Positions 29,986 to 33,933 of a DNA stretch of 50,576 bases are shown piece after piece. The translations under genes and the position numbers were made by a program. Positions within the stretch are counted from its first letter, which is position 1, and each line of letters starts with the position of its first letter. Source of the DNA: Paludibacteraceae bacterium (lineage in GTDB: Bacteria; Bacteroidota; Bacteroidia; Bacteroidales; Paludibacteraceae); NCBI GenBank assembly GCA_024401565.1, contig JAKSKU010000018.1:1-50576 (forward strand). Direction: 5' to 3'. The notes under the pieces are model-generated. The model was not told where the DNA came from, did no database searches, and was given only the letters and a program-made list of their open reading frames with translations.

Positions 29986-30519
29986 TTAAAAAGGCAGGTC
30001 ACTACCATCTGCATTAGGAGCAGGCTGTGCAGGAGATGCCGGTGCTGCCTGTGTTGGTGCTGCAGGAGCAGTGAATCCACCCTGCTGCATTGGCTGCTGG
30101 TAGCCACCCTGTGGTTGCGCATAACCCTGCTGCATTGGCTGCTGGTAACCACCCTGTGGCTGTGCATAGCCCTGCTGCATTGGCTGCTGAGGATAGCCTC
30201 CCATCTGCTGGCCATAGCCCTGCTGCGCCGCCATACCGTTGAATGGCTCAGCGCGGAAAGCACGGATATCGTTGAACCAACGACCGTTGTATTCTCTTGC
30301 GTCAACACTGCATGTTACTCGCACAACTCCCTGCTGCTGCTGAATTGCAGCGATTGTATTATAAGCGTTCTCATCCCAAACACTTACAAGTACGCGACGT
30401 GGAAACTGACCTGTTGTGTCGTGCTCAATAACGCACTCCCACATCTTCCATGGACCTCTTGCAGACTGTCCACTTCTCTCGCTCAAGTTTAGGACTGTAC
30501 CGATAAATTCGTATGTCAT
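29986..30519 (-). CDS. DUF3127 single-strand-binding-like protein with repeat tail
   Basis: The 177-residue product has a DUF3127 domain (residues 1-90), an OB-fold-like family of Bacteroidota. Family signs are GKW-like GPWKMWECVIEH, FPRRVLVSVWDENA and the near-invariant DAREYNGRWFNDIRAFR. The tail (about 95-165) is built of Gln, Gly, Pro, Tyr and Met, with 2.5 copies of a 15-residue repeat (core QPMQQGYAQPQGGYQ), then an Ala/Pro stretch. It ends in GSDLPF, like the acidic tip by which SSB proteins recruit repair enzymes. So the plan is that of SSB, though it is not the canonical Ssb. It lies between hisC (1 nt) and nth (2 nt). Confidence 0.88.
   Translation of the reverse strand: MTYEFIGTVLNLSERSGQSARGPWKMWECVIEHDTTGQFPRRVLVSVWDENAYNTIAAIQQQQGVVRVTCSVDAREYNGRWFNDIRAFRAEPFNGMAAQQGYGQQMGGYPQQPMQQGYAQPQGGYQQPMQQGYAQPQGGYQQPMQQGGFTAPAAPTQAAPASPAQPAPNADGSDLPF
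30080..30190. repeat. 45-bp tandem repeat, about 2.5 copies
   Basis: Copies at 30080-30124 and 30125-30169 differ at about four positions, and a third partial copy starts at 30170 (CCCTGCTGCATTGGCTGCTG). The repeat is a multiple of three and encodes the Q/G/Y/P/M-rich tail of the DUF3127 protein, so copy number could vary without frameshift. Confidence 0.85.
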
Positions 30520-30520
30520 A

Positions 30521-31552
30521 TCAATATTTTTTTAATGCTTTAATTAACTCCTCATTTTCTTCTTTTGTACCAATCGTGATACGCACACAATTACCACACA
30601 ACTGCACACGATGACGATTTCTGACAATGATTCCGCACTGTGTCAGATAAATATAAAGATCAGTTGCGTCATTCACTTTTACCAACACAAAATTAGCATC
30701 GGTAGGATAAATCTTCTCAACAAACTTGAACGCCTTCAACTCATACTCCAAATCAGCACGAAGTGAGATTGTCTCCTTCGCCCAGTTTTTGATGACGTCT
30801 GGATTCTTAAGAATCTTCAACGCATAGTCCTGAGTAAGCTTATTGATATTGTATGGATATTTGATCTTATTCAAGATGCCAATAATCTCCTCTGAAGCGA
30901 ATGCCATACCCAAACGCACTGACGCACTTGCCCATGCCTTTGAGAATGTCTGCAACACTATCATATTTGGATATTTCGCCAATTTCTGGCTATACGATTC
31001 TCTACCGCAAAAATCCCAGTACGCCTCGTCGATAACAACGATACCATCAAACTGTGTCAGCAACTTCTCGATGTCACAATCATTCAAGCAATTACCTGTA
31101 GGATTGTTTGGCGAACAAAGCCACATGACCTTAGTATGGTCGTCCACAGCGGCAAGCATCGCGTCCACATCAATCTGGAATCCTTCCTTCAAAGCTATAG
31201 GACGATACTCAACATTGTTGACATCCGCGCACACTTCATACATTCCGTATGTAGGAGAGATTGCCACAACATTATCAATGCCTGGCTCACAGAAAGCACG
31301 GTAGACCAAGTCAATAGGCTCATCACTACCATTTCCGAAGAGTATGTTCTTCGCATCCACATGCTTTACCTCTGCCACACGATGCTTAACTGCCCACTGC
31401 AATGGATCTGGATATCTGTTGTACGGATCATTACGTGGATTTTCGTTAGCATCCAAATAGACAGACGCCTCGCCCTTAAACTCATCACGCGCGCATGAGT
31501 ATGGCTTAAGCTTTAGGATGTTTGGTCGAACCAATTGACTTAATTCTTTCAT
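30521..31552 (-). CDS. hisC: Histidinol-phosphate aminotransferase
   Basis: HisC is a PLP enzyme that converts imidazole acetol phosphate and glutamate to histidinol phosphate. The 343-residue chain shows [57 protein letters not shown] and the PLP lysine in [19 protein letters not shown], ending with [19 protein letters not shown]. It lies 30 nt after hisD and 1 nt before the DUF3127 gene. Confidence 0.96.
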
Positions 31553-31582: not shown

Positions 31583-32863
31583 TTATTTGTTCTTCATTCT
31601 TAAAGTGACGGCATTCTTGTGAGCAAACAACATCTCGTTCTCCGCCATTATCTCAATTGCGTTTCCGATAAGCTGAAGACCGTTAGGAGTGATCTCCTGA
31701 TATGTGATCTTCTTGCGGAAACTGTCGAGATTCACACCGCTGTATGCCTTGGCATAACCGTTTGTAGGAAGTGTGTGATTTGTGCCCGATGCATAATCTC
31801 CAGCACTTTCAGGAGTAAGGTGGCCCAAGAATATTGATCCGGCGTTTGTGATCTTTTCCGCAATCTTCATATAGTCTGCAGTAGAGATGATCAAATGCTC
31901 AGGTGCATATTCGTTTGTGACGTCGATCACCTCAGCCAAATCCTTAACAAGGATGATCTTACTGTTGGCAACAGACTTCTCTGCGATCTCTTTTCTTGGC
32001 AGCAACTGTAGCTGACGGTCAACCTCAGCCAACACTTTCTCTGCCAAAGTCTTGCTTGTTGTGATGCAAACAGCCTGGCTGTCTACTCCGTGTTCTGCCT
32101 GTGACAATAGATCGGCAGCAACGAATGCCGGATTAGCAGTCTCGTCGGCGATAACCTCCACCTCACTTGGTCCGGCAGGCATATCGATAGCGACATCCTT
32201 CAAAGACACTCTCTGCTTTGCTGCTGTCACATACTGGTTACCAGGTCCGAAAATCTTGTATACCTTAGGAACACTCTCTGTTCCGTATGCCATCGAACCG
32301 ATAGCCTGAACACCACCGATCTTAAAGATCTTGCTTACACCAGCCACCTTAGCGGCGAACAACACAGCAGGATGAACCTTACCGTTTTTAGCAGGAGGTG
32401 TACAAAGCACGATCTCCTTGCAACCTGCGATTTTAGCAGGAATTGCAAGCATCAACACTGTTGAGAACAAAGGTGCTGTACCGCCTGGAATATAAAGTCC
32501 GACCTTCTCGATAGGCATTGCCTTCTGCCAGCAAGTGACGCCTGGCATAGTCTCAATGCGAGGAAGCTCGTGATCCTGGGCAGCATGGAATTTCTCAATG
32601 TTGCTCTTTGCCAAACGGATTGCATTCTTCAACTCGTCTGCCACCAAAGTCTCAGCCTCCGCTAGCTCAGCTTCCGACACCTGTAAAGAATCAAGCTGAA
32701 CCTTGTCGAATTTCAACTCGTACTCCTTCACCGCAACGTCGCCACGACTCTTGATATCGTCAAGCACAGCAGTGACGGTCTCTGTCAAGCTGCTATTATC
32801 CAATGCAGGACGTGATAGCAACGTCTTCCAATCTTTCTGATCCGGATATTCGATTATCTTCAT
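31583..32863 (-). CDS. hisD: Histidinol dehydrogenase
   Basis: HisD catalyses the last two steps of histidine synthesis, a zinc- and NAD-dependent four-electron oxidation. The 426-residue protein has the expected blocks: KVGLYIPGGTAPLFSTVLM, IFKIGGVQAIGSMAYGTESV, KIFGPGNQYVTAAKQRV, DMPAGPSEVEVIADETANP, DLLSQAEHGVDSQAV (zinc ligands Gln and His), APEHLIIST and the C-terminal SAGDYASGTNHTLPT. Its start codon overlaps the hisG stop by one base (TAATG). Confidence 0.97.
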   Translation of the reverse strand: MKIIEYPDQKDWKTLLSRPALDNSSLTETVTAVLDDIKSRGDVAVKEYELKFDKVQLDSLQVSEAELAEAETLVADELKNAIRLAKSNIEKFHAAQDHELPRIETMPGVTCWQKAMPIEKVGLYIPGGTAPLFSTVLMLAIPAKIAGCKEIVLCTPPAKNGKVHPAVLFAAKVAGVSKIFKIGGVQAIGSMAYGTESVPKVYKIFGPGNQYVTAAKQRVSLKDVAIDMPAGPSEVEVIADETANPAFVAADLLSQAEHGVDSQAVCITTSKTLAEKVLAEVDRQLQLLPRKEIAEKSVANSKIILVKDLAEVIDVTNEYAPEHLIISTADYMKIAEKITNAGSIFLGHLTPESAGDYASGTNHTLPTNGYAKAYSGVNLDSFRKKITYQEITPNGLQLIGNAIEIMAENEMLFAHKNAVTLRMKNK

Positions 32864-33720
32864 TAGAGAATCATTTTTTCAATAGGAACTACAAGGATAC
32901 CCTCTGCGCCAAGTTGCTTCAACTGGCTGATGATATCCCAGAAAGTTTTCTCTTCGATCACTGAATGAAGAGACGACCAACCCTCCTGGCGAAGCGGAGT
33001 GACTGTTGGAGACTTCATTCCTGGAAGAATCTTGCAGACAGCGTCGATCTTATCGTTAGGAATGTTAAGAAGGATGTACTTCTTTCCCTCTGCATTCTTG
33101 TAAGAGTCGAAACGGAAAAGGATCTCCTTCAATGTGGACATCTTTTCAGCGTCATTCTTTAGATTCTTATTTCCGATAAGAAGAGCCTCTGAATACATAG
33201 CGACCTCAACCTCCTTCAAGTTGTTGCTCACCAATGTAGAGCCAGAGCTTACAATATCAAAAATACAGTCTGCCATTCCGATACCAGGAGCGATCTCTAC
33301 GCTTCCCATGATAGTATGGATCTCTGCCTTAACACCATTCTTATCCAAATAGTTCTTCAAGATACGAGGATAAGATGTAGCGATCTTCTTGCCGTTGAAC
33401 CACTGGACACCAGTGTAGTCAACTGCCTTTGGAATAGCCAAAGACAAGCGGCACTTGCTGAAATCCAAACGCTTGATGATTTCTGCGTCCTCTCCCTTCT
33501 CCTCAAACTCGTTTTCTCCGACGATACCGACGTCTGCAATACCTGTTGCTACTGCCTGAGGAATATCGTCATCTCTCAAATAAAGAATCTCCACAGGGAA
33601 ATTCTTGGCTTTCACCAACAATGTTCTCTTTCCTGACTCTACTTTGATGCTCGATTCTTCCAACATCGTCATCGTCTCTTCAAATAGACGTCCTTTTGCC
33701 TGAACTGCTATTCTTAACAT
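32863..33720 (-). CDS. hisG: ATP phosphoribosyltransferase, long form
   Basis: HisG starts histidine synthesis from ATP and PRPP and is normally inhibited by histidine. At 285 residues it is the long form with its own C-terminal regulatory ACT-like domain (about 210-285, with SPTVTPLRQEGWSSLHSVIEE), so it needs no HisZ. The catalytic part shows MLRIAVQAKGRLFEETM, DIPQAVATGIADVGIVGENE, KKIATSYPRILKNYL and ADCIFDIVSSGSTLVSNNL. It is the first structural gene after the his leader peptide and attenuator. hisB, hisH, hisA, hisF and hisI are not in the window. Confidence 0.96.
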   Translation of the reverse strand: MLRIAVQAKGRLFEETMTMLEESSIKVESGKRTLLVKAKNFPVEILYLRDDDIPQAVATGIADVGIVGENEFEEKGEDAEIIKRLDFSKCRLSLAIPKAVDYTGVQWFNGKKIATSYPRILKNYLDKNGVKAEIHTIMGSVEIAPGIGMADCIFDIVSSGSTLVSNNLKEVEVAMYSEALLIGNKNLKNDAEKMSTLKEILFRFDSYKNAEGKKYILLNIPNDKIDAVCKILPGMKSPTVTPLRQEGWSSLHSVIEEKTFWDIISQLKQLGAEGILVVPIEKMIL

Positions 33721-33742: not shown

Positions 33743-33780
33743 ATAAAAAAGGAGACCTACCGTTTCAAGTAAGCCTCCTT
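33743..33780 (-). terminator. Attenuator terminator of the his unit
   Basis: In minus-strand RNA, AAGGAGGCUUAC pairs with GUAGGUCUCCUU over 12 bp with two G-U pairs, then a U run. The G-U pairs become A-C mismatches on the other strand, so the stem is perfect only in the his direction. It lies between the leader ORF and hisG, the place of an attenuator. Confidence 0.88.
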
Positions 33781-33794
33781 CGTTCCTCTATCGT

Positions 33795-33884
33795 TTATTT
33801 TGCAGAACACACACAAAGCTCACTTGCATCATTTTCTATGCAATGATGATGATGAATGTGCGTATGTAGTCTGCGAAATGTCAT
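33795..33884 (-). CDS. hisL: His operon leader peptide
   Basis: A 29-codon ORF starts at ATG 33884 and ends at TAA 33795. It contains HTHIHHHH at residues 7-14, that is six His codons in eight, followed by CIENDASELCVCSAK. It begins about 15 nt after the predicted transcription start and is followed by an intrinsic terminator 14 nt past its stop and then hisG. Known his leaders in enteric bacteria use a run of His codons so that ribosome stalling on low His-tRNA blocks terminator formation. The same logic is inferred here. It is not homologous in sequence to enteric HisL; the symbol marks function only. Confidence 0.88.
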   Translation of the reverse strand: MTFRRLHTHIHHHHCIENDASELCVCSAK

Positions 33885-33902
33885 TTTCTCTTTATTTTTC
33901 TA

Positions 33903-33933
33903 CAAAATTATATAAAAATGAGATTATGACAAT
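33903..33933 (-). promoter_or_regulatory. Promoter of the his unit
   Basis: ATTG (33930-33933), 19 nt and TAATTTTG (33903-33910) on the minus strand place the start near 33897, about 13 nt before the leader ATG. The -7 box is the same as that of ssrA. Confidence 0.7.

Follow-up and report, generated by a model that had tools for sequence, protein, structure and literature searches.

A probable histidine attenuator with a His-rich leader peptide upstream of hisG in a Paludibacteraceae bacterium, and its counterparts in other Bacteroidota

The window, by which we mean the whole stretch of 50,576 nucleotides that was analyzed (contig JAKSKU010000018.1 of a Paludibacteraceae bacterium), carries hisG, hisD and hisC on its minus strand, preceded by a short His-rich ORF and a hairpin with a U run (Table 1). 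An earlier note, made from the sequence alone, had placed a minus-strand promoter, a His-rich 29-codon ORF, a terminator with a U run and then hisG at this locus, and each part was found where it had been placed; the name hisG was borne out by two protein family models, and hisD and hisC downstream could be named in the same way. No match was obtained in an NCBIfam search with the leader peptide, which at 29 codons would hardly be expected to fold. An Rfam scan of the window returned a tmRNA as its sole match (RF00023; 19338-19732, minus strand), with no family at gathering score for the attenuator. Downstream of hisC is a gene for a DUF3127 protein with a tail of Gln-Pro-Gly-Tyr repeats (29986-30519), and directly upstream of the leader, on the same strand, is one whose long, secreted product has a type IX sorting domain (TIGR04183; 33962-37537) and which is confined to part of the genus.

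Table 1. Positions in the window of the leader elements and of the histidine genes that follow them.
Feature	Position	Strand	Details
Leader promoter	33903..33932	-	TTG 33932-33930, 19-nt gap, TAATTTTG 33910-33903; read from the sequence
Leader peptide ORF	33795..33884	-	29 codons, MTFRRLHTHIHHHHCIENDASELCVCSAK; ATG at 33884, stop 33797-33795
Six His codons	33843..33866	-	Codons 7, 9, 11-14; proposed sensor
1:2 hairpin (protector)	33802..33874	-	Predicted to form without a ribosome; MFE and centroid folds
Strand 2, antiterminator strand	33815..33825	-	AAGUGAGCUUU; within the leader ORF
Strand 3, terminator 5' arm	33769..33780	-	AAGGAGGCUUAC; partner is strand 2 or strand 4
Intrinsic terminator and U run	33743..33781	-	Strand 3, loop, strand 4 at 33760-33749
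hisG	32863..33720	-	ATP phosphoribosyltransferase; TIGR00070, TIGR03455 above cut-off
hisD	31583..32863	-	Histidinol dehydrogenase; TIGR00069 above cut-off
hisC	30521..31552	-	Histidinol-phosphate transaminase; TIGR01141 above cut-off

The promoter motif recurs with the leader. Of 41 related leaders, 39 have TAnnTTTG no more than 60 nt from the leader ATG, compared with 34 of 820 shuffles, and only 3 of the 41 have it in the next 60 nt further upstream. Passages of a study of flavobacteria describe this motif as the sigma-A −7 box (PMC9723704).

The leader RNA folds more stably than expected from its composition. The terminator stem has a predicted energy of −19.2 kcal/mol (z −3.97; 1 of 200 shuffles equally good), and the whole leader reaches −47.8 kcal/mol (z −5.26; 0 of 200 shuffles). 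As the earlier note had claimed, the terminator is directional, its value of −19.2 kcal/mol in the his direction comparing with −7.9 on the opposite strand; the claimed 12-bp stem holds for the core, and RNAfold pairs 14 bp in all. The note had also suggested folding the RNA for an antiterminator, which it did not name. When the RNA was cut just before strand 4 and the first part of the leader was removed, a complementary strand emerged at 33825-33815, where AAGUGAGCUUU pairs with GGAGGCUUACUU of the terminator 5′ arm. The leader therefore holds the classical parts of an attenuator: a protector hairpin (33874-33802), an antiterminator (2:3) and a terminator (3:4).

We looked for loss of these parts in close relatives, as the earlier note had proposed. 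hisG is present in eight of nine genomes of the genus, and all eight, the window included, have kept the His codons of the leader, the antiterminator strand and the terminator. Seven have a long leader, common to the window and six others (L002-L006, L111), and one has a short leader, MKNYTLNKHHHHHHIS (L007, whose hisG is 93% identical), with the antiterminator strand and the terminator retained. In most genera, strand 2 begins a few bases past the leader stop or contains the stop codon. Seven of the eight genus leaders, in comparison, read through the antiterminator strand: in the genus of the window, the ORF spans strand 2 together with the sequence that flanks it on the 3′ side, and a ribosome finishing the leader would therefore pass over strand 2. 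Strand 2 also lies within the ORF in L055 and in genomes of family f124, which belongs to another order.

The tail of the long leader, CIENDASELCVCSAK, carries three Cys and is almost invariant in six of the seven long-leader sequences of the genus, with two changes in L111. Such constancy would suit a genuine small His/Cys-rich, metal-binding protein, with the hairpin merely terminating an upstream transcript, an explanation that we consider very improbable. The tail is missing in L007 and in the leaders of other genera, and the features that do recur are the His codons, the three strands of the switch (2, 3 and 4) and the position ahead of hisG. Moreover, the tail sequence doubles as strand 2, so that RNA pairing may explain its conservation. 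As for an upstream transcript, among the loci compared the gene upstream of the leader had matches in L001-L006 alone and the element persists elsewhere, which argues that the element is not just carried along with that gene.

Covariation was assessed in 36 Bacteroidales elements aligned by MAFFT (alignment A2). These came from 42 regions chosen out of 109, of which 40 were kept after an unrelated His-ORF with a TTG start (L023) and a distant region (L030) had been dropped before alignment; L043, L048, L056 and L100 were left out of A2 because the scan found no perfect stem in them. A subset of 31 (A3, without L004, L005, L014, L027 and L035) was the source of a model, R1, that is built from his leaders and covers strand 2 to the terminator; R1 still matched L043, L048, L056 and L100, at 42.1, 31.3, 34.9 and 33.2 bits, respectively. 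By the scan criterion, a U run follows the stem in the window and in the other 35 rows of A2, some tails being T-rich and not pure T.

Both alternative pairings covary, the antiterminator more weakly. In the terminator, 92.6% of cells are paired and 7 of 12 pairs have double changes, with 37 double-change (compensatory) cells versus 8.5 in shuffles. In the antiterminator, 85.3% of cells are paired, counting as non-pairs the three rows in which the alignment either did not locate strand 2 (L014, L035) or misaligned it (L027); 3 of 10 pairs have double changes, and there are 14 double-change cells versus 3.2 in shuffles. Its covariation score was 0.300 versus 0.220, with 0 of 500 shuffles as high, and controls in which the strands were slid gave 26.7-46.1% paired. 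However, on two of the five measures the antiterminator did not exceed the shuffle level (pairs changed on both sides, 66/500; further pair types, 288/500), and at a slide of −3 the number of double-change cells was 21, above the 14 of the true register. Little freedom to vary would be expected of strand 3, which is bound to two partners, and the weaker antiterminator signal fits this. The homologue of strand 2 in the alignment is the box CGGUGGGC and its variants, which covaries with strand 3, and the genus of the window contributes double changes, with A-U pairs where other genera have C-G and G-C.

The comparison upstream of hisG that the earlier note had called for covered 138 hisG upstream regions: 29 from relatives (L015 having no upstream sequence), the best 80 named loci and 29 from other orders, the last being the 29 best of the 127 other genomes that had a match. 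After short and identical regions were removed, 135 were left. We scored an ATG ORF of 10-40 codons with at least three His in eight codons and a terminator downstream, within 350 nt of hisG. Such a His-rich ORF with a terminator was found in 60 of the 135 regions, many of which are mutually related, far above the controls: it was absent from all 135 reverse complements and all 675 dinucleotide shuffles, and it occurred once in 520 random flank segments. Among the best 80 named loci, the leader was present in all 14 of Bacteroides (ten with a perfect stem by scan, the other four through R1), in both of Phocaeicola, in all three of Paraprevotella and in the single loci of Dysgonomonas, a Dysgonomonadaceae record and a Tannerellaceae record. 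No leader was found in the 31 loci of Prevotella, Prevotellaceae and Xylanibacter whose upstream sequence was long enough (in a 32nd it was 41 nt), and R1 gave no match to these 31 at E 0.1 or better.

In the family of the window, 8 of 17 loci outside the genus carry the element. Four have it right before hisG; in the other four (L008, L011, L016, L017) it lies about 500-530 nt upstream. We rejected the idea that the element is mostly missing in relatives of the same family, since the 400-nt span of the search was too short and R1 finds matches at 500-530 nt. In these four loci and in the named locus L038, the His-rich leader is followed by a gene of 156-164 residues and then by hisG. In L016 and L017, the two that were scanned, the intervening gene is a Pfam 4HBT thioesterase, and the histidine operon of all five loci may include a thioesterase.

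Of the 29 loci from other orders, 22 had a leader and a terminator, two a leader with no detected terminator and five neither; six of the 29 loci fall outside the class, and five of these six are among the last seven. Family f124, from another order of the same class (L166, L167, L169, L170, L173, L178, L181-L184, L187, L189), has a different strand 3, CGUUUGAG, and a different terminator sequence, AACCCGTTTGAG. Its strand 2, CUCARGCG, is predicted by a helix search to pair with CGUUUGAG, and most of its leaders have a conserved QA near the end.

R1 also linked the his element to leaders of other pathways. It scored the element of the window at 52.6 bits, being built partly from the same sequence, with the next match in that genome at 29.7, and it matched 81 of 198 genomes of the order at E 0.01. 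Of the 30 loci listed, 21 lie before hisG, four before trp genes (L120, trpB; L130, trpE; L133, trpG; L141, trpE) and five before neither; among 20 further matches picked by hand, six lie before hisG, five before trp genes (L144, L146, L147, L148, L158), one before ilvD and eight before neither. The loci without a his, trp or ilv gene (5 of 30 and 8 of 20) reflect that R1 below about 40 bits also takes ordinary terminators. The nine trp loci, which precede trpE, trpG or trpB, all have leaders in which two or more Trp codons stand side by side (WW or WWW), and in L161 a Val/Ile-rich leader, MFALVVSVLVIILVVVASGSGKVC, and the same kind of module stand directly before ilvD. The gene names at these loci come from NCBIfam and Pfam matches of N-terminal pieces; L158, L144, L146, L147 and L141 are named through the Anth_synt_I_N domain only.

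A shared origin of the his, trp and ilvD modules may be read from these matches. Bacteroidota terminators generally have A and U runs, so that part of the likeness may be generic. We entertain, as a tentative and somewhat doubtful possibility, a single cassette family (strands 2, 3 and 4: CGGUGGGC, GAGGCUURCC and GGUAAGCCUC) that would sense His, Trp or Val/Ile by codon swapping, with the leader in the genus of the window extended so that a finishing ribosome sweeps the switch.

The match between codons and pathway, His before hisG and Trp before trp genes, also argues against a leader that senses a ligand or a protein, be it a riboswitch or the target of an RNA-binding protein, and in which the short ORF would play no part. 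The choice between 2:3 and 3:4 pairing would fit any sensor, and yet no Rfam family reached its gathering score here and none named the element in a relaxed search of L116; we rate such a sensor as highly unlikely. Equally slim are the chances of translational attenuation, in which the hairpin would hide the hisG start region: the hairpin does end only 27 nt from the hisG ATG, but the start codon lies beyond the stem and is not part of it, and the stem is followed by the U run described above.

To ask how a translating ribosome might set the balance between the two pairings, we placed it at successive codons under a stricter rule, with 12 nt covered ahead of the A site and pairing solely ahead of the ribosome. 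With the ribosome at the first His codon, 2:3 pairing exceeded 0.5 in 32 of 33 elements (all except L110), and at the stop codon it fell below 0.3 in 29 of 33 (exceptions L007, L010, L020 and L065). In the window, the 2:3 value (sum over pairs divided by 8) was 1.25 with the ribosome at the His codons and 0.00 with it at the stop codon, with the switch point at codon 19 under the stricter rule or at codon 17 otherwise; the last His codon is codon 14. Both pairings are feasible. Without a ribosome, the antiterminator already exceeded 0.5 in 9 of 33 elements, and when pairing across the ribosome was allowed, it also formed at the stop codon of the window (0.81). For the full RNA at equilibrium, the terminator prevailed wherever the ribosome stood (0.83 or more), so that the switch would require a co-transcriptional order of events.

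These models suggest the following mechanism. Transcription would begin just upstream of the leader. With charged His-tRNA plentiful, the ribosome would pass the six His codons and then cover strand 2, so that strand 3 would bind strand 4 and transcription would end before hisG. With His-tRNA scarce, the ribosome would stall at the His codons, the 1:2 hairpin would be melted and strand 2 would become available to pair with strand 3 ahead of the synthesis of strand 4; no terminator would form and hisGDC would be transcribed. What we infer from the arrangement of the parts is that the ribosome stalls, that it does so in response to His-tRNA, that the steps follow this co-transcriptional order and that expression changes as a result. 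We consider that classical ribosome-mediated histidine attenuation is very probably the best explanation of the element, and the earlier proposal, attenuation through ribosome stalling on the His codons, is supported as the best reading.

Leader-peptide attenuation is textbook knowledge for enteric bacteria, and Bacteroidota mostly lack Shine-Dalgarno sequences. Such sequences are described as absent in flavobacteria in passages of one study (PMC9723704). In open-licence PMC papers, we found little direct experimental support for leader-peptide attenuation in Bacteroidota. If the attenuation reading is true, many gut and environmental bacteria would sense histidine through coupled transcription and translation, by an element that stands outside Rfam, and the Bacteroides leaders permit direct tests in culturable strains. 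Two wrinkles deserve note: the leader that runs through the antiterminator strand, and the module shared with trp and ilvD, which offers a route to asking if amino-acid specificity evolves by codon swapping.

The principle of attenuation is known. Among the matches listed from open-licence PMC papers, none reported a His leader peptide in Bacteroidales. Vitreschak et al. (2004) reportedly state in their abstract that candidate attenuators also occur in Bacteroidetes/Chlorobi. Where passages of published work touch on the subject, one describes a structured, transcribed element 5′ of hisG in Flavobacteriaceae, conserved in the family and without an Rfam match, as well as strong clues for leader-peptide attenuation ahead of amino-acid operons (PMC9723704); the likeness to our element is one of description, as these passages give no sequence and do not name hisG as a leader-peptide case. 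Others mention that long 5′ UTRs of B. thetaiotaomicron contain short ORFs reminiscent of leader peptides (PMC7366714) and that his operons of Firmicutes, another phylum, have predicted leader peptides with three to five consecutive His codons (PMC9413887), again alike by description. In the available text of a 2010 paper, the authors knew of no leader-peptide system outside Proteobacteria and Actinobacteria before their own Firmicutes case (PMC2965389), and in that of another, His leaders were found only through the Rfam model (PMC3766115). The design is commoner in Bacteroidota, and nearer to published work, than the earlier note assumed.

Compared with the enteric HisL (RF00514, His_leader; E. 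coli sequence MTRVQFKHHHHHHHPD), the element shares a run of His codons, alternative hairpins and an intrinsic terminator before hisG, whereas its terminator sequence differs and the leader in the window is longer and covers the antiterminator strand. On an origin separate from HisL, at which the earlier note had hinted, the comparison points both ways. RF00514 did not match the window at its gathering score, nor any of 13 loci (the element of the window included) at E up to 5, and R1 gave no match in the E. coli his region, but in some Bacteroides the leader has HPDE as its end, with a superficial likeness to the HHHHHHHPD of E. coli. T-box models likewise had no match in the window or in the relaxed Rfam search of the 13 loci. 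Nearer in phylum is the Bacteroid-trp leader RNA (RF01692), listed in the part of Weinberg 2010 that bears on it (PMC2864571), which has a short leader ORF and an AAAGGCUURCC strand ahead of a biosynthetic gene, but with Trp codons and trp genes in place of the His codons and his genes seen here. RF01692 scored three trp loci found by R1 at 44.1 (L120), 41.7 (L130) and 35.8 bits (L141), none reaching its gathering score of 49, and did not match the element of the window, its genome or the scanned his loci (E up to 5). Thus, the element of the window, which has no Rfam family, is most likely a real, conserved histidine attenuator of a known kind, and what is new beside these systems is the links drawn by R1 to trp and ilvD leaders, the genus leaders that run through the antiterminator strand and, in five loci, the gene between attenuator and hisG, a thioesterase in the two that were scanned.
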